Under the pieces are notes generated by a model, which was given only the letters and a program-made list of their open reading frames with translations, searched no databases and was not told the origin of the DNA. Both the position numbers and the translations under genes were made by a program. A stretch of 39,744 nucleotides of DNA from Peptococcaceae bacterium BRH_c4a. Its GTDB lineage: Bacteria; Bacillota; Desulfotomaculia; Desulfotomaculales; Desulfocucumaceae. Shown here in pieces: positions 17,092-39,558 of this stretch (positions within the stretch are counted from its first letter, which is position 1; every line of letters starts with the position of its first letter). The stretch covers positions 1-39,744 of the forward strand of contig LADN01000063.1 of NCBI GenBank assembly GCA_000961585.1, read 5' to 3'.

Positions 17092-17106
17092 TGGGGGGTG
17101 GGCTGG

Positions 17107-18774
17107 TTGAACATGGATAAAAACAAGCTGATTGAAAACCTGACCGGAGTAAATTCCTCCAAGTTGAATTATTACCTGGAGTTAAAGCAACGCAACCAGG
17201 AGATTATCAAGCAGAATAACCGCCTGGAAATTATTCACCAGATTGTCAGGGACATCAATATTGATATGTCAATAAAAGACATTATAGAAAGGGTATTCAG
17301 GAAACTGCCCACAGTAATTCCCTGCGATTTTCTGGGGATGGCTCTTTTTAACGGAAAGAATCTTGTCTATACTGCCATGGAGCCCCCATGCCGCTGTATT
17401 GGTCAGAATGTGCCCAGAAAATCTCTGCTATGGGAAACCGTCAGGCTGCGGGAGAGCAGGATTTACCACCTGGACCAGGCGGCAGACAACTACTACACGG
17501 GCTTGAGGTCGGATATGATGCCGGGGCTGGCTTCACTGGCTGTGGACCCGTTGTTTGTCAAAGGTGAGGTAATTGGTGTCTTAATCATTGGTAGCGCAAA
17601 AACCGCTGCATACAGCCAGGAACTGAAATTCACCCAGCAGATGGCCGACCAGCTGGCCATCTGCATTGAAAATGCCAGGCTGTTTGAGAAAGTGGTGCAG
17701 GGGCGGCGGGAATGGGAAGAAACATTTCGTGCCCTCACTGATCCTATTTTTCTAATAGATCTCAACTATAAAATAGTGAAGAGCAATGACCGCAAAAAAG
17801 AATTGGAGAACGAATCAGTTAAAGGGGCCGGTGGCAGAAAATGCCATGAGTTGCTGTGGGGCAGGAAGAAAAAGTGCGAGTCTTGCCTGCTGGACGAGGT
17901 GTATAAAACCCAAAAATCAGCCTACCGACGCATTCAGCGGCCATCGGGAAAGGTTCTGGATGTTTTTTACTACCCGGTTTTTAACGAAGAAAATAAAATT
18001 TACGCTATCATCCATCATATCAAAGACATGACCGAGCAGGTAAAAATTGAGGCCCAGCTGGTACAGTCCGCCAAGTTGGCGGCCATTGGCGAGATGGCTG
18101 CCGGGGTGGCCCATGAATTGAACAGCCCAATGACGGTTATTATTGGTAATGCTCAGATTCTACTGCGTGAAATGGACAAAAACAGCCCTCATTCGGAACT
18201 GTTGAATGATATTGCCAACTGCGGACTGAGATGTAAAAAAATTATCCAGAATCTGCTTACATTTTCCCGGCAGGATCAACAGCCCTTTGCTCCTACCGAT
18301 CTGAATAAAGTTGTGGAAAGGGTTCTAAGCCTCATCCATTACCAGATTAACAGGAACAATATTGATATAAAACTGGAACTTGATCCATGGTTACCGTTGG
18401 TAACGGCAAACGATCATCAGTTGGACCAGGTGCTGTTAAATTTTGTCCTTAACGCCCGGGACGCTCTGGAGGGCCTTGACAGTGAAAAGCAAATAAGTAT
18501 ATCAACATCGGTCAGGGAAGGTTTCAATGGGCGCAGATATGTTATGGCAACGGTGAGAGATAACGGCATAGGAATGCCGTCGGAAAATCTAAGTAAAATA
18601 TTTAACCCTTTTTTTACCAGCAAGGAGGCAGCCAGGGGTACGGGGTTGGGACTGAGCGTAAGCCTCGGGATAGCTGAGGGACACGGAGGCAATATCGAAG
18701 TGGAAAGCATTATGGGGGAGGGTAGCACCTTTTCGCTGGTGCTGCCGATGGAAGCCGGCATGGAGGAGGTGTAG
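17107..18774 (+). CDS. GAF-PAS sensor histidine kinase
   Basis: About 555 aa, no membrane segment, so a cytoplasmic sensor. Order: coiled coil (about 10-45), GAF domain (about 50-195), PAS domain (about 205-315, with the Cys motif KCHELLWGRKKKCESC), HisKA with GVAHELNSPM (His336), then HATPase_c with N box LNFVLNARDAL, G1 DNGIGMP, F box FNPFFTSK and G2 GTGLGLS. The cysteines in the PAS domain could bind metal or sense redox state. The TTG at 17107 is preferred for spacing from GGGGGG; GTG 17098 and ATG 17113 are alternatives. It is translated 4 nt before its likely partner, the sigma-54 activator. Confidence 0.92.
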   Translation: MNMDKNKLIENLTGVNSSKLNYYLELKQRNQEIIKQNNRLEIIHQIVRDINIDMSIKDIIERVFRKLPTVIPCDFLGMALFNGKNLVYTAMEPPCRCIGQNVPRKSLLWETVRLRESRIYHLDQAADNYYTGLRSDMMPGLASLAVDPLFVKGEVIGVLIIGSAKTAAYSQELKFTQQMADQLAICIENARLFEKVVQGRREWEETFRALTDPIFLIDLNYKIVKSNDRKKELENESVKGAGGRKCHELLWGRKKKCESCLLDEVYKTQKSAYRRIQRPSGKVLDVFYYPVFNEENKIYAIIHHIKDMTEQVKIEAQLVQSAKLAAIGEMAAGVAHELNSPMTVIIGNAQILLREMDKNSPHSELLNDIANCGLRCKKIIQNLLTFSRQDQQPFAPTDLNKVVERVLSLIHYQINRNNIDIKLELDPWLPLVTANDHQLDQVLLNFVLNARDALEGLDSEKQISISTSVREGFNGRRYVMATVRDNGIGMPSENLSKIFNPFFTSKEAARGTGLGLSVSLGIAEGHGGNIEVESIMGEGSTFSLVLPMEAGMEEV

Positions 18775-18778
18775 CCAC

Positions 18779-20317
18779 TTGACAGAAAACCTGGAAACTC
18801 CCTCGGTATTTATCATCGATGATGAAATAGAGGTGGGGAATTTTTTCAGTCACCTTTTTGAGAGAAAAGGATACAGGGTGAATGTGGCCAACTGTGGTGG
18901 CGATGCCATTAAGCTAATGGATACCCACAGGTTTCATGTGGCCATGGTTGACTTGAAGCTGCCGGATTCCGACGGCTTAACCCTGCTACAGGAGATAAAG
19001 GCCCGGCTGCCCGGCTGCGAAGTAATCATAATGACCGGTTACAGCACCACCCGTACTGCTGTCAAAGCCATTCAACTGGGAGCATTTGACTATGTAGAAA
19101 AGCCCTTTGAAGACATAGGTGAAATAGAAGTCCTGGTTCAGAGGGCGGTGGATTATAGCCTGGGCGCCCGGAGTACGGGGGATGCGCATCCGGAATGGGC
19201 TGACGTTGCGGAAATGGTGGGTTTTCAGGTGGGGTCCACCCTACAGATGAGCAGGCTAGTGTCCATTGCGTATAAAATTGCCAGGAAAAGTATAAATGTG
19301 CTGATACAGGGTGAAACGGGAACCGGCAAGGAGGTGCTGGCCCGTTTCATCCATGCCGCCAGCAGCAGGGCGGAAAAAATGTTTATACCTATAAACTGCG
19401 GGGCACTGCCGGAAAACCTGCTTGACAGCGAGCTGTTCGGGCATGAAAAGGGGGCTTTTACCGGGGCGGCAGGTCAGAGAAAGGGTATTTTTGAACTGGC
19501 CAACCAAGGGACTCTTTTTCTTGATGAGATCGGCGAGGCCAGTATGCCCATTCAAGTAAAGCTTTTAAGGGTTCTGGAGACCGGTGAGTTTTTACGTGTG
19601 GGCGGAGAAAAATCAATCAGAACTGACGTCCGCATAATTGCGGCCACCAACGTGGATCTGGAACAGGCCGTAAAGAACAGGGAGTTCAGAGAGGATCTGT
19701 TTTACCGGCTGGACGTGGTGAGACTGGGGATCCCTCCTTTGCGTAACCGCAAAGTGGACATACCCCTCCTGATAAAACACTTTATCAGGAGGTCGGCCAG
19801 TGGTGTCCGCCGGTATCCGGAAATGTCCCCGGAGGCCATGGAGCTTTTAATTAATTATGGCTGGCCCGGCAATATAAGGGAACTGGCCAATACAGTGGAA
19901 CAGGCTGTGGCTCTTTGTGACGGACCGGTTATCATGCCGGTTCACATTCCGGATAAAATAGCCTTCCGAACCTCTGTGGAAAGTAACTTAAAGGAAAACG
20001 TGACGCCTGAGTCACTGCCGGAATTGCTGGAAAAGGCGGTTGTAAACAGCGATAGACTAAATTTGCTCTCCCCTGAGCACCTTTACCGGGTACACCGGCT
20101 GCTAAAGGCGCTGGACCGGCAGGTGGGCGAGGCCATGCTGGCCAAAGGTCTACCCCTTCAACCTCCGCCGCCCCTGGAGGAGGTTGAGGTCAGGGTCATG
20201 ACCGAAGCTCTGGCTTACCATAACGGAAATGTCACCTTGGCCGCCAAAGCATTGGGTATAGGGAGAAACACCCTTTACAGAAAAATAAAAGAGTACAATA
20301 TCGAAATAAGGGGGTAG
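18779..20317 (+). CDS. Sigma-54-dependent response regulator (NtrC type)
   Basis: 512 aa. Receiver domain with acidic pocket IIDDE and phosphoacceptor Asp58 (VDLKLPDSDG); AAA+ domain with Walker A GETGTGKE (about 178), the sigma-54 contact loop GAFTGA (about 225) and Walker B LFLDEIGEA; C-terminal Fis-type helix-turn-helix (NVTLAAKALGIGRNTLYRKIKEY). It should activate -24/-12 promoters when phosphorylated by the kinase encoded just upstream. The TTG start follows GGAGGAGGTG by 8 nt. The only good -24/-12 element noticed in the window is at 23470, in front of the second dehydrogenase and AOR genes, which makes that operon the likely target. Confidence 0.93.
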   Translation: MTENLETPSVFIIDDEIEVGNFFSHLFERKGYRVNVANCGGDAIKLMDTHRFHVAMVDLKLPDSDGLTLLQEIKARLPGCEVIIMTGYSTTRTAVKAIQLGAFDYVEKPFEDIGEIEVLVQRAVDYSLGARSTGDAHPEWADVAEMVGFQVGSTLQMSRLVSIAYKIARKSINVLIQGETGTGKEVLARFIHAASSRAEKMFIPINCGALPENLLDSELFGHEKGAFTGAAGQRKGIFELANQGTLFLDEIGEASMPIQVKLLRVLETGEFLRVGGEKSIRTDVRIIAATNVDLEQAVKNREFREDLFYRLDVVRLGIPPLRNRKVDIPLLIKHFIRRSASGVRRYPEMSPEAMELLINYGWPGNIRELANTVEQAVALCDGPVIMPVHIPDKIAFRTSVESNLKENVTPESLPELLEKAVVNSDRLNLLSPEHLYRVHRLLKALDRQVGEAMLAKGLPLQPPPPLEEVEVRVMTEALAYHNGNVTLAAKALGIGRNTLYRKIKEYNIEIRG

Positions 20318-20365
20318 TTGCCCATGCCGTCGGCGGCGCCACGGAGGATGAGAACCTGATCCGGC

Positions 20366-20392
20366 CACAGAGGGCACAGAGAACACAGAGAA
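20366..20392 (+). repeat. Three 9-bp tandem units (CACAGAG core)
   Basis: CACAGAG occurs at 20366, 20375 and 20384, giving three 9-bp units in the non-coding gap after the activator gene. The rest of 20318-20533 is AT-rich; no gene is seen. Confidence 0.6.
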
Positions 20393-20517
20393 GTTTATAG
20401 TTGAAAGCAATCTGAATGGGCTTTTAGTTATAGGGCTTTTTTATAATTTTAAAATGTTCAAGGTTAGACTCAAACAATAAAGGATTTTTTTGTTTTTTAT
20501 AGAATATTTCTTGACAA

Positions 20518-20523
20518 TATAAT
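20518..20523 (+). promoter_or_regulatory. -10 element upstream of the first riboswitch
   Basis: Perfect TATAAT placing the start point near 20530, just before stem P1 of the first riboswitch at 20534. The -35 is weak (T-rich). Confidence 0.5.
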
Positions 20524-20533
20524 TTAAAAAATA

Positions 20534-20630
20534 CTTCTCCGAGTCAAGATACCTTTCTGGCGGATGCCATGGTATTAGACCGATAGGGTATACCGGGAAA
20601 CCGGTGTGCCTCCCGTTGCGGAAAGGAGAG
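20534..20630 (+). ncRNA. Moco/Tuco-type riboswitch, first of a tandem pair
   Basis: It carries the hallmark segments of the Moco RNA family: CTCCGAGTC at the 5' side, ACCGGGAAACCGGT hairpin, TGCCTCCC, and GCGGAAAGGAG at the 3' side, closed by CTTCTCC pairing with GGAGAGG. The family senses molybdenum or tungsten cofactor, and here it lies ahead of tungstate uptake genes. A perfect intrinsic terminator follows, so ligand binding probably controls read-through. Confidence 0.85.
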
Positions 20631-20644
20631 GCAGCAGGGCGTTT

Positions 20645-20695
20645 ATAAGCCCTTCATTGTCTTGTCCGGATGCAATGAAGGGCTTATATTTTTTT
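20645..20695 (+). terminator. Riboswitch-linked intrinsic terminator
   Basis: Stem ATAAGCCCTTCATTG / CAATGAAGGGCTTAT (15 bp, perfect) followed by an A and eight T. It lies between the two riboswitch copies. Confidence 0.88.
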
Positions 20696-20707
20696 ATTAA
20701 TAACCGA

Positions 20708-20803
20708 GTCTCCGAGTCTACCTGCCTAAAGCTCTTGTCATGGCAGACTGACCGACAGGGTATGCCGGGAAACTGGTATGCCTCCCATAGCGGAAAGGAG
20801 AGA
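20708..20803 (+). ncRNA. Moco/Tuco-type riboswitch, second of a tandem pair
   Basis: It has the same conserved blocks as the first copy: CTCCGAGTC, GACCGACAGGGTATGCC, GGGAAAC, TATGCCTCCC and GCGGAAAGGAG. The hairpin reads CCGGGAAACTGG rather than CCGGGAAACCGG. No intrinsic terminator is visible between it and tupA (20898), so it may act on translation or by another route. Confidence 0.85.
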
Positions 20804-20897
20804 TGTGTTTTGAAAAAACCGTTTTATTGACCGGGTCATACTGTTCATTTACTGGCTTGGTTATACTTGATTAAGACAAAAGGAGTGTTTTTACAAG

Positions 20898-21782
20898 ATG
20901 TTAAAAAGAAATTTGGTTTTAGCAGCGGTAGTATTGTTTGGACTGTTCCTTGCCGGGTGCCAGTCTAAAACTGAAAAAGCTCCCCGGGAGGCGGTAAAAC
21001 CACCTGCAGTAAAAGACGTGATTCTGGCTACCACAACCAGCACCCAGGACAGCGGGTTACTGGAGGTTCTTATCCCCGACTTTGAAAAGAAAACCGGATA
21101 CAAAGTAAAGCCCATCGCTGTTGGAACCGGCCAGGCGCTTAAAATGGGAGAGAAAGGAGAGGCCGACGTGCTGCTGACCCACGCCATGAGTGCGGAAAAG
21201 CCCCTGGTTGACTCAGGTGTTGCGGTAAATTATAAACTTATTATGCACAATGATTTTGTTGTGATTGGCCCGGAAAACGACCCGGCGGGAGTTAAGCAGG
21301 CCAAAGACAGCGCCGAGGCTTCCAAAAAGATTGCCGAAAAGGGATCGGTATATATCTCCAGGGGAGACGACTCCGGCACTCATAAGCAAGAGCTGTCCAT
21401 CTGGAAAGTCGCCGGTATTAATCCGAAGGGAATGAAATGGTATCAGGAAACCGGCAGCGGCATGGGGCAGACACTGAATGTCGCCAATGAGAAGCAAGGC
21501 TACACCCTCACTGACCGCGCCACATACCTTGCCCAGAAGAAGAATCTGAAACTGGTCATAGTTGCCCAGGGAGATAAGGCATTGCTGAATATATACCACG
21601 TAATGCAGGTAAACCCCGAAAAATTCCCCAAAGTAAACGGAGCGGGGGCAAAGGCTTTTGTGGAGTATTTGGTCAGCCCCGAAACACAGAAAATTATCAG
21701 CCAATTCGGCAGGGACAAATACGGCGAGTCTTTATTTTATCCTGATGCCGGAAAGAAAGCTGAAGAATTGGGTAAAAAGTAA
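20898..21782 (+). CDS. tupA: Tungstate ABC transporter, substrate-binding lipoprotein TupA
   Basis: 294 aa. A lipoprotein signal ends at LAGC (Cys about 22). The mature part begins with VILATTTSTQDSGLLEVLIP, the TTTS oxyanion-binding motif of TupA, and has GRGDDSGTHKQEL-like (SRGDDSGTHKQEL) and TLTDRATYL motifs typical of the tungstate/molybdate binders of this family. It captures tungstate outside the membrane for TupB and TupC. The ATG has AGGAGTG 10 nt upstream. Control by the two upstream riboswitches fits tungsten rather than general anion uptake. Confidence 0.93.
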   Translation: MLKRNLVLAAVVLFGLFLAGCQSKTEKAPREAVKPPAVKDVILATTTSTQDSGLLEVLIPDFEKKTGYKVKPIAVGTGQALKMGEKGEADVLLTHAMSAEKPLVDSGVAVNYKLIMHNDFVVIGPENDPAGVKQAKDSAEASKKIAEKGSVYISRGDDSGTHKQELSIWKVAGINPKGMKWYQETGSGMGQTLNVANEKQGYTLTDRATYLAQKKNLKLVIVAQGDKALLNIYHVMQVNPEKFPKVNGAGAKAFVEYLVSPETQKIISQFGRDKYGESLFYPDAGKKAEELGKK

Positions 21783-22513
21783 TGAAGTGCATACTGGAAG
21801 CCATAGACATAATACTTAAAAAAGGGAACAGAGAGATTCTTAATATTGGGCAGTTTGCCCTGCAAGAAGGTGAAATACTGGCTGTTGTCGGCCCCAACGG
21901 GGCCGGCAAGAGCACTCTCCTGCAGGTATTGGCGCTGCTCCAGCAGCCAACAAAGGGGGTAGTTTTGTTTCGCCAGAACATTGTTAACAAAAAAAACGCC
22001 CTTGGTTTCAGGCGCAGGATGGCTGTTGTTTTTCAGGAATCATTGCTGCTAAATACCACCGTTTTCAACAATGTTGCCCAGGGGCTGAGGTTGAGGGGTT
22101 TTTGCAGAAACGAGATCCCTTCAAGGGTAAATTTATGGCTGGACAGGCTGGGGGTGTCCCACCTGGCGCACCGCATGCCAAGGTTTTTGTCGGGGGGTGA
22201 AGCTCAAAGGGTAAATATTGCCAGGGCTATGGCGCTCAACCCCGAGGTGTTATTCCTCGATGAGCCTTTCACCGCCCTTGATTATCCCACCAGGGTTTCA
22301 ATTTTGAAAGAGATGGGGGTTATTTTAAAAGAATCCGGGACAACCACTTTTTTTGTAACTCACGATTACACAGAAATTCCTTATCTGACCGATAATGCCA
22401 TTGTCATGGGAGAGGGTCAAATAAGTCAACGGGGTAAGGCGTCGAAGCTTTTCAGAGATGGGTTCGAAAATATTTTTTGCTCATCAAAAAAGATTAAAGT
22501 AGGTATGGTATGA
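21782..22513 (+). CDS. tupC: Tungstate ABC transporter ATPase TupC
   Basis: 243 aa ABC ATPase: Walker A GPNGAGKST, Q-loop VVFQES, signature LSGGEAQR, Walker B VLFLDEPF, and switch histidine VTHDY. The ATG overlaps the tupA stop by one base, so translation is coupled. It energises uptake by TupB. The name rests on the neighbours. Confidence 0.92.
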   Translation: MKCILEAIDIILKKGNREILNIGQFALQEGEILAVVGPNGAGKSTLLQVLALLQQPTKGVVLFRQNIVNKKNALGFRRRMAVVFQESLLLNTTVFNNVAQGLRLRGFCRNEIPSRVNLWLDRLGVSHLAHRMPRFLSGGEAQRVNIARAMALNPEVLFLDEPFTALDYPTRVSILKEMGVILKESGTTTFFVTHDYTEIPYLTDNAIVMGEGQISQRGKASKLFRDGFENIFCSSKKIKVGMV

Positions 22514-22514
22514 T

Positions 22515-23213
22515 ATGGAATTAGTCTGGGACGGCATGGTGAAGGCATTTGAGCTGTTGCTGCGGGGAGACAGGGAGGTATTGGGAATAACTTTTCTGAC
22601 TCTTCAGGTTTCCGGTCTGGCTACCCTTATAAGCGTGATAATAGGTGTTCCGCTAGGGGTATTCCTTGCTCTGGCTGTCTTTCCGGGGCGCAATGTGGTT
22701 GTCAGCATAGTGAATTTCGGCATGGGGCTGCCTCCGGTGGTGGTAGGTCTATGGGTCTCTATTTTCCTTTGGCGTTCCGGCCCGCTTGGCTTTCTAAACA
22801 TGATGTATACGCCCGGGGCTATTATTGTGGCCCAGGCCATAATAGCGTCACCGATAGTCACGGGATTTACCATAGCAGCCATAGGTCAGTTGAACCACAA
22901 AATAAAGTTGCAAATACTGGCTCTTGGAGCATCCCGCTTGCAGTTGCTCTGGCTGCTTATACGGGAAGCGCGGATGGGTCTGATAGCCGCTGTAATTGCC
23001 GGTTTTGGCGGGGTAATATCAGAAGTGGGAGCATCCATGATGGTGGGGGGAAACATCAGCGGCTACACCAGGGTGCTTACAACAGCAACGGTAATGGAAG
23101 TTTCAAAGGGTAATTTCGATATCGCCATTGCCATAAGTGTCATATTGATGTTATTGGCCTATACCATCACCTTTGCCTTAACCATGTTACAGCAAAAGGA
23201 CAGGCACTCTTAA
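22515..23213 (+). CDS. tupB: Tungstate ABC transporter permease TupB
   Basis: 232 aa, about five membrane helices, with the ABC permease EAA loop near LGASRLQLLWLLIREARMGL. It forms the membrane channel of the tungstate transporter. It starts 1 nt after the tupC stop and is followed by a strong terminator, so tupA-tupC-tupB form a three-gene operon. Confidence 0.92.
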   Translation: MELVWDGMVKAFELLLRGDREVLGITFLTLQVSGLATLISVIIGVPLGVFLALAVFPGRNVVVSIVNFGMGLPPVVVGLWVSIFLWRSGPLGFLNMMYTPGAIIVAQAIIASPIVTGFTIAAIGQLNHKIKLQILALGASRLQLLWLLIREARMGLIAAVIAGFGGVISEVGASMMVGGNISGYTRVLTTATVMEVSKGNFDIAIAISVILMLLAYTITFALTMLQQKDRHS

Positions 23214-23485: not shown

Positions 23486-23654
23486 AATATGAATTGTCAC
23501 AATAAACAAAAAAGGGGGAACATTTTAACTCTACTGGTACAGCTTTTAGTTTTCTCCAGCGACATTCAAGCGGAACCATGACAGGCCTCAGTTATTCAGT
23601 CAAACAAGTTTGTGATTCATTAAAAAACAAATGGGAATAGGGAGGTATTTTTTT

Positions 23655-24818
23655 ATGGCATTGGGAGAGCAAGTATACGGTTATTTTATACCCACGGTTA
23701 ATCTCATGGGAGTTGGGGCGTCCAAGGAAGTGGGCAACCAGGTGAAGGTGCTGGGAGGGACCAAGGCCCTCATAGTTACCGACGGGTTTTTGGCCAAGTC
23801 CGGAATGGCCGACCAGATCAAGTCCCAGGTTGAGGCAGTGGGGACAGAGGCGGTAATTTTCGGCGGCGCTGAGCCAAACCCCACCGACATCAACGTTCAC
23901 AATGGATTAAAGGCATACCAGGAAAACAACTGCGACATGATCATTTCCCTGGGCGGAGGCAGTTCCCATGACTGCGCCAAGGGTATTGGAATAGTGGCCT
24001 CCAACGGGGGCAATATCCGGGACTATGAGGGCATTGACAAGTCAACCAAGCCCATGCCTTCATTTATCGCCATCAACACTACCGCTGGGACGGCCTCGGA
24101 AATGACCCGTTTCTGCATCATAACCGACACCGACCGTTCGGTGAAGATGGCCATAGTTGACTGGAGGGTAACTCCCAACGTAGCCATAAACGACCCTGTT
24201 CTTATGTCGGGGATGCCTCCGGCTCTTACTGCGGCCACCGGCATGGATGCCCTGACCCACGCCGTGGAGGCCTATGTATCCACCATCGCCACCCCGGTGA
24301 CTGATTCCGCAGCCCTTATGGCCATAAAGCTTGTTTCTGAAAATCTGCGCAATGCCGTGGCCAACGGCCAGAACATGGTGGCTCGGGACAAGATGGCTTA
24401 CGCCGAGTTCCTTGCCGGCATGGCCTTCAATAACGCCAGTTTGGGTTATGTGCACGCCATGGCCCACCAGTTGGGCGGTTTTTACAACTTGCCTCACGGT
24501 GTGTGCAACGCCATTTTGCTGCCCCACGTGTGCAAATTCAACCTGATAGCCTGCCCCGAGAGGTTTGCCGAGATTGCGGCAGCCATGGGAGAGAACATCA
24601 CCGGCCTTTCGGTGCGGGATGCCGCAGACGTGGCAATCGCCGCCATCCAGAAGCTTTCGGCCGATGTGGGCATTCCTTCGGGACTTAAGGACCTGAGCGT
24701 GAAGGACGAGGACCTCAATGTAATGGCCGGGAATGCCATGAAGGACGCCTGCAGCTTCACCAACCCCAGAACAGCCACCATGGCCGATGTCATCGAAATA
24801 TACCGCTGCGCCATGTGA
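23655..24818 (+). CDS. Iron-containing alcohol dehydrogenase (second copy, AOR-linked)
   Basis: 387 aa from the ATG at 23655, chosen because GGAGG lies 9 nt upstream. Group III Fe-ADH with [14 protein letters not shown] (about 97-110), [13 protein letters not shown], and metal-ligand segments [32 protein letters not shown]. It interconverts alcohol and aldehyde. Codons are strongly GC-ending and regular, as in highly expressed genes. It lies 29 nt before the AOR gene, so together they can link alcohol, aldehyde and acid. Transcription is probably from the -24/-12 promoter at 23470. Confidence 0.93.
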
Positions 24819-24847
24819 AACCTGTAAAAAAGGTGGAGGAGATTAAA

Positions 24848-26575
24848 ATGGCCAAGATATTAAGGGTTAACATGTTTCAAAAGGAACTGAAGTGGGAGGA
24901 TGTTCCCGGAAAATATGCCGCTCTTGGAGGCAGGGCGCTGACTTCACAGATAATACTGGACGAGGTTCCGGCTACCTGCGACGCCCTTGGAGAATTAAAC
25001 AAGCTGGTTATCGCACCCGGCCTTCTTTCGGGCACCAACGCCCCATCATCCGGGCGCCTGTCAATAGGTGGCAAAAGCCCCCTGACCGGTGGAATAAAAG
25101 AAGCCAATGCGGGGGGAATAACCTCTCAAAAACTGGCCAGCCTTGGCCTAAAGGCAATAATTCTGGAAGGCAGGCCGGAAGGAAGCGGCTGGTACGGAAT
25201 AAAAATATCCGCCGACGGCGCTGAAATGTTCAATGCCAATGATCTGGCCGGTAAAGGCACGTATGAGGTGACCTCAATATGCAGGGAGCAGTACGGGTCC
25301 AAGGTTGCCGTTGTTACCATCGGGACGGCGGGAGAAATGCAGCTTCTATCTGCAGGGGTTGCCAATAATGACACTGAAGGAAACAGCAGCCGCTATGCCG
25401 GCAGGGGCGGGCTGGGGGCAGTAATGGGATCGAAGCGTGTGAAGGTTATCGTGGTGGACAGCCCCGGAACCTTTGACGCCCCCGTTAAAGATTCTGAAAG
25501 ATTCAAGGCCGCGGCTAAAAAATTCTCCAGAATATTGTTGGACCACCCGGTTACGGGCAAGGGACTACCGGCATATGGCACCAACGTTTTGATGAATATT
25601 ATTAATGAGGCCGGCACTCTGCCCACCCGTAACTTCCGTTACGGAAGGTATGACAAGGCCTGCGAGGTATCCGGAGAGAAACTGGCCGAGGTGGCCGTGG
25701 CCCGGGGAGGTAAAGCCACACACGCCTGCCATCCCGGTTGCGTAATGCGCTGTTCCAATGTCTACCCGATGCCGGACGGCAAGGTTTGCGCTCCCATCGA
25801 ATACGAAACCGCCTGGGGTTTCGGACCTAACCTGGAGATTGGAGACCTGGACGTGGTGGCAAAGCTGAACTATATATGTAACGATGTGGGATTGGATACT
25901 ATCGAGATCGGGTGTGCCCTGGGCGTGCTGATGGAGGCGGGAGTGATCCCCTTTGGTGACGGGAACGCCGCCGTATCAGCCCTGGAAGAGGTAGGCAGGG
26001 GTACCGCCCTGGGCCGCATAATAGGCAGCGGAGCCGCTGTGGCCGGCAAGGCTTATGGTGTGACCAGGGTACCGGTGGTGAAGGGGCAGGGCATTCCAGC
26101 ATACGACCCCAGGTCCTGCAAAGGCAACGGAGTGACTTACGCAACATCAACCATGGGTGCCGATCATACAGCAGGATACGCCGTAACCGCCAACATCCTA
26201 AGCGTAGGGGGTACTGTTAACCCGCTGTTTGCCGAGGGGCAGGTAGACTTGTCCAGGAATCTGCAGATTGCTACAGCAGCAGTTGATTCCACCGGTCTGT
26301 GCCTGTTTGTTGCCTTCGCCGTGCTGGACAACCCCGAAGGGCTTCCCGCAATTGTTGAAATGATCAACGCCCAGTATGGCGTGAACCTTACTGTGGATGA
26401 TGTGGTAGCCCTGGGTCAGAATGTGTTAAAGGTGGAGCGGGAATTCAACAGCAGGGCCGGATTTACCAAGGCTGACGACAGGCTGCCCGAATTCTTCGTT
26501 AATGAGGAGCTGGAGCCCCATAAAACAAAGTTTGACATCAAAGATGAGGAACTGGACGGAGTTTTTAACTTCTAG
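24848..26575 (+). CDS. Tungsten-type aldehyde:ferredoxin oxidoreductase (AOR family)
   Basis: 575 aa from the ATG at 24848 (GGTGGAGGAG upstream). The N-terminal AOR domain (about 1-205) shows GGRALTSQIILDEVP and NNDTEGNSSRYAGRGGLGAVMGSK, typical pterin-binding stretches. The [4Fe-4S] cysteines are Cys294, Cys298 and Cys302 (ACHPGCVMRCSN) with Cys485 (STGLCLF). The first spacing is x3, not the x2 of classic AOR. The enzyme oxidises aldehydes to acids with ferredoxin, or reduces acids when ferredoxin is very reduced, and needs a tungsten bis-pterin cofactor, which matches the riboswitch-controlled tungstate transporter upstream. It is co-transcribed with the alcohol dehydrogenase. Substrate range is unknown. 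Confidence 0.92.
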   Translation: MAKILRVNMFQKELKWEDVPGKYAALGGRALTSQIILDEVPATCDALGELNKLVIAPGLLSGTNAPSSGRLSIGGKSPLTGGIKEANAGGITSQKLASLGLKAIILEGRPEGSGWYGIKISADGAEMFNANDLAGKGTYEVTSICREQYGSKVAVVTIGTAGEMQLLSAGVANNDTEGNSSRYAGRGGLGAVMGSKRVKVIVVDSPGTFDAPVKDSERFKAAAKKFSRILLDHPVTGKGLPAYGTNVLMNIINEAGTLPTRNFRYGRYDKACEVSGEKLAEVAVARGGKATHACHPGCVMRCSNVYPMPDGKVCAPIEYETAWGFGPNLEIGDLDVVAKLNYICNDVGLDTIEIGCALGVLMEAGVIPFGDGNAAVSALEEVGRGTALGRIIGSGAAVAGKAYGVTRVPVVKGQGIPAYDPRSCKGNGVTYATSTMGADHTAGYAVTANILSVGGTVNPLFAEGQVDLSRNLQIATAAVDSTGLCLFVAFAVLDNPEGLPAIVEMINAQYGVNLTVDDVVALGQNVLKVEREFNSRAGFTKADDRLPEFFVNEELEPHKTKFDIKDEELDGVFNF

Positions 26576-39112: not shown

Positions 39113-39558
39113 ATCGTTAAGGAAAGTATATGTCATATTAAAGTGCTAAATCGTCAAAGCATTTTTATATAGCCCAGAGTTTTTCCGGGGTCGCTCCGGG
39201 GTCACTTGAGGGTCGCTGCATTGTCGCTAATGGGTAGGTGGAGGGGTTTGAGTCCGATCTACTTATCCTCCGGCTGAACTGGCTCTAAGCTCGTCGCCTA
39301 ACGGACTGCCGACCGCCTCCAACGCCGCATCCTTGCGTCGATTCCGGCTACCGGCTGCGTCCTGCAGCCGGTTCGGCAGTCCGTACGGCTCTGTCGCCAA
39401 GAGCCAGATAACAGCCTCCGGAACATCCGCCTGGACTAAAACCCCTCCCCCTCACTGCATGTCGCTTGAGGGTCACGTTTGCTTATTCTGGCTTCTGACT
39501 CCTGGCTCCTGGATTCCGCCGTCTGCAAGACGGCACCGCCGACAAGGCGGTTATTTTA
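39113..39558 (+). repeat. Composite intergenic repeat, copy E2 (full length)
   Basis: It begins with AGGAAAGTATATG and TTAAAG units as in copy B, then iterons at 39190, 39201, 39212 and 39223, the branched core (39240-39448), iterons at 39461 and 39472, 7-bp units, hairpin GCCGTCT-gca-AGACGGC (39518-39534), and hairpin ACCGCC-gacaa-GGCGGT (39535-39551) with a TTATTTTA tail. Confidence 0.88.
39240..39448 (+). other. Branched palindromic core of repeat copy E2
   Basis: Outer stem GGAGGGGTTT plus AGTCC against GGACT plus AAACCCCTCC; second stem CTGGCTCT (39279-39286) against AGAGCCAG (39400-39407); third stem ACGGACTGCCGA (39301-39312) against TCGGCAGTCCGT (39373-39384); terminal CCGGCTGC / GCAGCCGG. 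It differs from copy A by paired changes in all three long stems. Confidence 0.85.

Follow-up and report, generated by a model that had tools for sequence, protein, structure and literature searches.

The closest described relatives of the locus analysed here are the Moco/Tuco riboswitches (Rfam RF01055) of Regulski et al. 2008 (PMC2408646), which include a form lacking stem P3, a tungstate-transporter context, a 3′ strand of P1 resembling a Shine–Dalgarno (SD) sequence, a terminator platform, and tandem arrays in Syntrophomonas wolfei and G. metallireducens. In that report, the absence of P3 is tied to use of the tungsten cofactor (Tuco or Wco), the bulge of P2 is the site of a tetraloop receptor, and the ribosome-binding site of E. 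coli moaA within P1 is a published expression platform. The S. wolfei triplet has terminators after its first two copies only. Tandem Moco/Tuco RNAs (PMC2408646), like tandem riboswitches generally (PMC9481103), have been proposed to give a steeper or two-level response. The latter survey, from 2022, which by its own statement did not assess all platforms, includes tandem Moco RNAs (13 doublets and 2 triplets) and tandem Wco RNAs, the Wco pairs lying upstream of genes unrelated to cofactor synthesis, and gives the name bi-mechanism to pairs that act on transcription and then on translation; its named examples are SAM-II with SAM-V, SAM-II doublets, and SAM-II with SAM-I/IV. The B12 riboswitches of Mycobacterium tuberculosis provide an experimental precedent for riboswitch-linked upstream open reading frames (uORFs; PMC11260477).

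In the window, by which we mean the whole 39,744-nucleotide stretch of Peptococcaceae bacterium BRH_c4a that was analysed, cmscan against Rfam 15 (gathering score of RF01055, 36 bits) places two full-length aptamers (model positions 1–135) on the plus strand upstream of a tupA-like gene: copy 1 at 20525–20644 (54.7 bits, E = 1.5e-10; 92.3 bits with model R1) and copy 2 at 20698–20816 (70.6 bits, E = 3.3e-15; 100.1 bits with model R1). A preliminary description had placed two Moco/Tuco-type aptamers with common core blocks before tupA, and had proposed a covariance check with RF01055; both copies pass the 36-bit threshold, copy 1 being the weaker but not degenerate by score, and the coordinates given earlier (20534–20803, with a terminator at 20645–20695) are right within a few bases. 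The conserved core (CUCCGAG, CAGGG/UAGGG, GGGAAAC, GCCUCCC, and GGAAAGGAG) and the pairing of P1, P2, and P4 are present, as judged from an alignment of 49 aptamers (A2), whose consensus fold has two-sided changes at 19 pairs. P1 of copy 1 is formed by 20534–20540 and 20625–20631, and that of copy 2 has CUCC (20710–20713) as its 5′ strand and GGAG (20797–20800) as its 3′ strand. No third RF01055 copy is found in the whole 3.49 Mb genome assembly. Since P3 is absent from both aptamers in the cmscan alignment and the gene context is tungsten-related, both copies are predicted to be sensors of the tungsten-cofactor (Tuco/Wco) type. Work in vitro with the free tungsten cofactor is difficult. The tandem arrangement itself is not new, because tandem Moco/Wco RNAs, the S. 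wolfei triplet, and bi-mechanism tandem riboswitches have all been published; a steeper or two-level response is plausible here as well.

The operon downstream comprises genes, all on the plus strand, for a TupA-like tungstate-binding protein (20898–21782; Pfam PBP_like_2; 229.5 bits with NCBIfam TupA against a cut-off of 400), the ABC ATPase of the tungstate transporter (21782–22513; ABC_tran; best NCBIfam match WtpC, below cut-off), and the permease (22515–23213; BPD_transp_1; NCBIfam ABC_perm1 at 270 bits, over cut-off; TupB at 158.7 bits against a curated cut-off of 320). Its earlier naming as tupABC thus stands as to the three kinds of protein, and is qualified by TupA and TupB scores below the curated cut-offs. 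An aldehyde ferredoxin oxidoreductase family gene (24815–26575) adds tungsten-related context for the Tuco (Wco) subtype. Genes for a GAF/PAS histidine kinase and a sigma-54 response regulator lie upstream of the riboswitch pair (17098–20317), and downstream of the transporter an Fe-type alcohol dehydrogenase gene precedes that of the oxidoreductase (together 23631–26575). The two-component genes, riboswitch pair, transporter, and oxidoreductases are likely an alcohol/aldehyde oxidation cluster with its own tungsten supply. Directly upstream of copy 1 P1, the leader has a possible sigma-70-like promoter (TTTATA-16-TATAAT; 20496–20523, plus strand; consensus match 10/12), a weak candidate, since shuffled sequences average 1.0 such sites. 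A second candidate, inside the copy 1 terminator (TTGTCC-17-TATATT), was no better than shuffles and was dropped.

Copy 1 runs into an intrinsic terminator (20644–20696, plus strand), consisting of a hairpin (20644–20688, −25.1 kcal/mol), which is also present in the minimum free energy fold, and a U tract (20689–20696). In other family members, copy 1 has a counterpart of this terminator at the same position. No clear antiterminator for copy 1 was identified in the window; in a related genome, G006, the more stable fold has an alternative pairing at the expense of P1 (−65.0 versus −61.5 kcal/mol), yet the terminator stays free. Within 150 nucleotides downstream of copy 2 there is no terminator, in agreement with the preliminary description, which had assigned one to the first copy only; its proposal that the two copies use different expression platforms is likewise supported.

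The 3′ end of copy 2 carries GGAAAGGAG (20792–20800, plus strand), a conserved aptamer element, near-invariant in alignment A2, whose GGAG closes P1 and is also SD-like. The element is SD-like in nearly all aptamers and so by itself proves nothing about translation control. Nine nucleotides after GGAG begins a six-codon leader ORF (20810–20830, plus strand; UUG AAA AAA CCG UUU UAU UGA), which would encode M-K-K-P-F-Y-stop if initiated. Folding of the sequence downstream gives a hairpin without a U tract (20828–20863, plus strand) that begins at the stop codon of this ORF. The tupA gene has an SD of its own, AAAAGGAG (20878–20885, plus strand), 12 nucleotides from the ATG at 20898 and 80 nucleotides downstream of the SD-like sequence in copy 2 P1. 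The earlier suggestion that copy 2 may act on translation is upheld in altered form only, since the ribosome-binding sequence within P1 precedes the leader ORF rather than tupA. A 23-codon ORF from the ATG at 20803 was dropped, both because 2 nucleotides after GGAG is too short a spacing and because the same ATG opens frames of merely 3–8 codons in relatives.

The leader ORF recurs in all five copy-2-type leaders of the family as M/L-x-x-x-F-Y-stop, always of six codons and starting 8–10 nucleotides after GGAG. The four counterparts are AUG GUU AAA CCG UUU UAC UGA in G007 (MVKPFY, 9-nucleotide spacer), AUG AGU AGA UCU UUU UAC UGA in G006 (MSRSFY, 10 nucleotides), UUG AGA AUG CAU UUU UAC UGA in G001 (MRMHFY, 8 nucleotides), and AUG ACC GUU AAG UUU UAU UGA on contig C28 of G003 (MTVKFY, 10 nucleotides), where an extra AUG stands one codon upstream. 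UUG is the start in two of the five (the window and G001). Codons 2–4 vary freely, whereas UUU UAY UGA changes only at the synonymous third base of the tyrosine codon. Naively, treating the related leaders as independent, one would expect all five to carry a start at that offset with a probability of 3e-7, and any in-frame start in range with a probability of 3e-5; since the FY-stop motif and six-codon offset were picked post hoc, from five related leaders of one bacterial family, the true strength is below these figures. Across 122 distinct aptamer tails, a start codon lies 5–12 nucleotides after GGAG in 52 (51.4 in shuffles) and a short ORF is present in 20 (25.5 in shuffles), the FY-stop ending occurring only in the five leaders of the family. 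Given this background frequency, the idea that Moco RNAs generally carry mini-ORFs was dropped. Pattern searches covering 113 class and 398 phylum genomes returned Moco-linked FY-stop leader ORFs in this family only, the phylum matches outside the window being judged by sequence alone. On G003 contig C28, the aptamer pair and leader ORF precede an NAD-type aldehyde dehydrogenase gene, and tupA of G003 has no Moco RNA, which indicates that the module goes with the switch and not with tupA. Our guess is that expressing a tungsten-free aldehyde dehydrogenase under shortage of the tungsten cofactor would be sensible beside tungsten-dependent aldehyde oxidoreductases.

RF01055 aptamers are found in 104 of the 113 genomes of the class, and the eight genomes of the window's family hold 21 copies, 14 of them in seven tandem pairs (counted from coordinates). 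Among 80 tupA-like loci of named genomes, 34 have one or more Moco RNAs in the 700 nucleotides upstream, and 4 have two. The copy 2 aptamers of the window, G006, and G001 share 76–82% identity with one another, against 70–72% with the adjoining copy 1, and copy 2 of G003 contig C28 groups with them at 70–78%. Because copy 2 aptamers resemble each other more than their neighbouring copy 1, the comparison points to an ancient pair whose positions and roles are fixed, rather than to a recent local duplication, although the aptamer tree is weakly supported. The single aptamer before tupA in G007, with a 5′ half like copy 1 and a 3′ half and tail like copy 2, would fit a deletion between the two copies. 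G007 has a further RF01055 copy before a transporter ABC ATPase gene on another contig (L014, G007:C7, 1501–1627). Some class members (G026, G027, G028, G090, and G091) hold 22–27 RF01055 copies, more than the 15 of S. wolfei in the 2008 report. At loci of other families (L081, L074, L077, L038, and L042), the second copy has behind it a terminator-like hairpin whose U tract is poor and, shortly after, a GGAGG-like sequence, a combination that may act on both transcription and the ribosome site of the gene.

We propose, with about an even chance of being right, that the two copies form an OFF/OFF pair in which copy 1 would end transcription and copy 2 would gate translation of the leader ORF, so that tungstate uptake is shut at high cofactor. 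With ligand bound to copy 1, the terminator hairpin at 20644–20688 would halt RNA polymerase, both the ligand control and the OFF direction being inferred. Formation of copy 2 P1 would pair CUCC with GGAG and hide the SD of the leader ORF; without ligand, a ribosome would load there, the ORF being conserved in sequence and its translation inferred. A ribosome ending at UGA would prevent the aptamer from closing and unfold the hairpin at 20828–20863, and leader translation may reach tupA expression by coupling, by protection of the leader, or by holding P1 open. Strong hairpins with U-rich tails right after the leader stop are present in G007 and G003 contig C28 only, and suggest that in these relatives a ribosome on the leader ORF would prevent termination; a conserved terminator at this place was dropped as a candidate, being seen in neither the window, G006, nor G001. 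Several points count against the model: the leaders are only five and come from one family, with a motif chosen post hoc; UUG is the start in two of them, the window's included; tupA has an SD of its own, and the 67 nucleotides from leader stop to tupA start are far for coupling; copy 1 of the window shows no clear antiterminator; and the post-stop hairpin is not conserved in G006 and G001, so that the last step lacks a uniform anatomy. A more specific version, which we hold to be rather unlikely, is that the terminating ribosome on the M-x-x-x-F-Y leader peptide, possibly slowed at the FY-stop codons, serves as an antiterminator or coupling device.

A simpler account is that the 3′ flank of copy 2 directly controls translation of tupA or mRNA stability, as in pseudo-cooperative or bi-mechanism tandems, and that the FY-stop block is untranslated and owes its conservation to a constraint on RNA or DNA, or to descent. 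Tandem Moco/Wco RNAs are already in print (PMC2408646, PMC9481103), the relatedness of the five leaders makes conservation by descent possible, and the full-length fold pairs the SD region of tupA with the 5′ flank of copy 1. That pairing, by eye, is not apparent in the leaders of G006 and G007, and sequestration of the tupA SD by this flank was dropped. The start codon, moreover, keeps its frame and six-codon distance to the stop though the spacer from GGAG shifts between 8 and 10 nucleotides, and the module also stands upstream of a non-homologous gene. The five leaders offer the FY-stop block no pairing partner in common, an argument against its conservation on purely structural grounds, and its role as one side of a conserved alternative stem was dropped. 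We regard this account as possible, leaning to doubtful.

Two further readings concern copy 2 and the ligands. The last Moco RNA upstream of tupA-like genes is mostly followed by a terminator, and the window hairpin at 20828–20863 could be the remnant of one; copy 2 might then be a spare or decaying riboswitch that has lost its own terminator, leaving control to copy 1. Copy 2 is, however, the better conserved (70.6 versus 54.7 bits), and G007, with one aptamer only, retains the copy 2 tail with leader ORF and terminator-like hairpin, which makes decay improbable. The P2 bulge raises the other reading, that the two aptamers sense different ligands (Moco and Tuco, for example) as a two-input gate: both copies have a GAAA tetraloop, and at the receptor copy 2 has CCUAAA/CAUGG whereas copy 1 has CCUUUC, which is off consensus and occurs once among 132 aptamers in which CCUAAR is commonest. 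This bulge is variable across the class, though, and the copies are alike in lacking P3, the Tuco-linked feature (PMC2408646), in their core blocks, and in lying upstream of a tungstate operon; a two-ligand gate is accordingly very improbable.

Set against the described systems, the OFF/OFF pair proposed here shares with the bi-mechanism tandems of the survey that also includes tandem Wco RNAs (PMC9481103) two independent platforms, the first transcriptional (an intrinsic terminator) and the second probably translational. It departs from them in that the second platform does not control access to the ribosome-binding site of the regulated gene, which lies 80 nucleotides downstream, the P1 sequence preceding the leader ORF instead. 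The SAM-II/SAM-V tandem (PMC9481103) likewise has a terminator on the first copy and occlusion of a ribosome-binding site on the second, but combines two aptamer classes and controls the gene's own site directly. In the M. tuberculosis B12 system (Kipkorir et al. 2024, PMC11260477), the switch also controls a short uORF, needed by ppe2; there, the aptamer belongs to another class, and the uORF overlaps the gene start (AUGA) and acts for the most part by termination-reinitiation. The ORF in the window has six codons, and its stop is 67 nucleotides from the gene. In the report of Regulski et al. (PMC2408646), the term 'leader peptide' has 0 occurrences, and in the window the last copy precedes a conserved six-codon leader ORF. 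We found no published description of a copy 2 hiding the ribosome site of such an ORF, and the leader ORF behind copy 2 looks, from sequence comparison, to be the one new feature of the locus. If it is translated under riboswitch control, it would offer a simple answer to the recurring puzzle of Moco/Tuco RNAs that lack a terminator and stand a long way from their gene, as noted for S. wolfei in 2008. A leader peptide would then serve as the expression platform of a riboswitch stacked behind a terminator riboswitch, adding one more riboswitch class with a regulatory uORF and linking the sensing of tungsten cofactor to the translation of a minimal peptide. If it is not translated, the locus would be an ordinary tandem Wco riboswitch, yet a clear example of fixed-order copies with different platforms.

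Two repeat families were also observed. RF01731 (TwoAYGGAY) has 115 matches in the genome (98 contigs), with copies in the window at 155–312 and 39265–39423 (minus strand); many matches lie no more than a few hundred bases from the end of a contig, three recur at an exact 442-nucleotide period in contig C91, and RF01731 is here a structured repeat, dispersed and high in copy number. The second family is a MITE-like inverted repeat whose end motif, GCCACAGAGGNCACAGAG, is found 28 times in the genome, including 20363–20381 of the window, and 168 times in G001, where one copy (L135, 2687–2917) lies between the two tupA aptamers and explains much of the 352-nucleotide gap between them.
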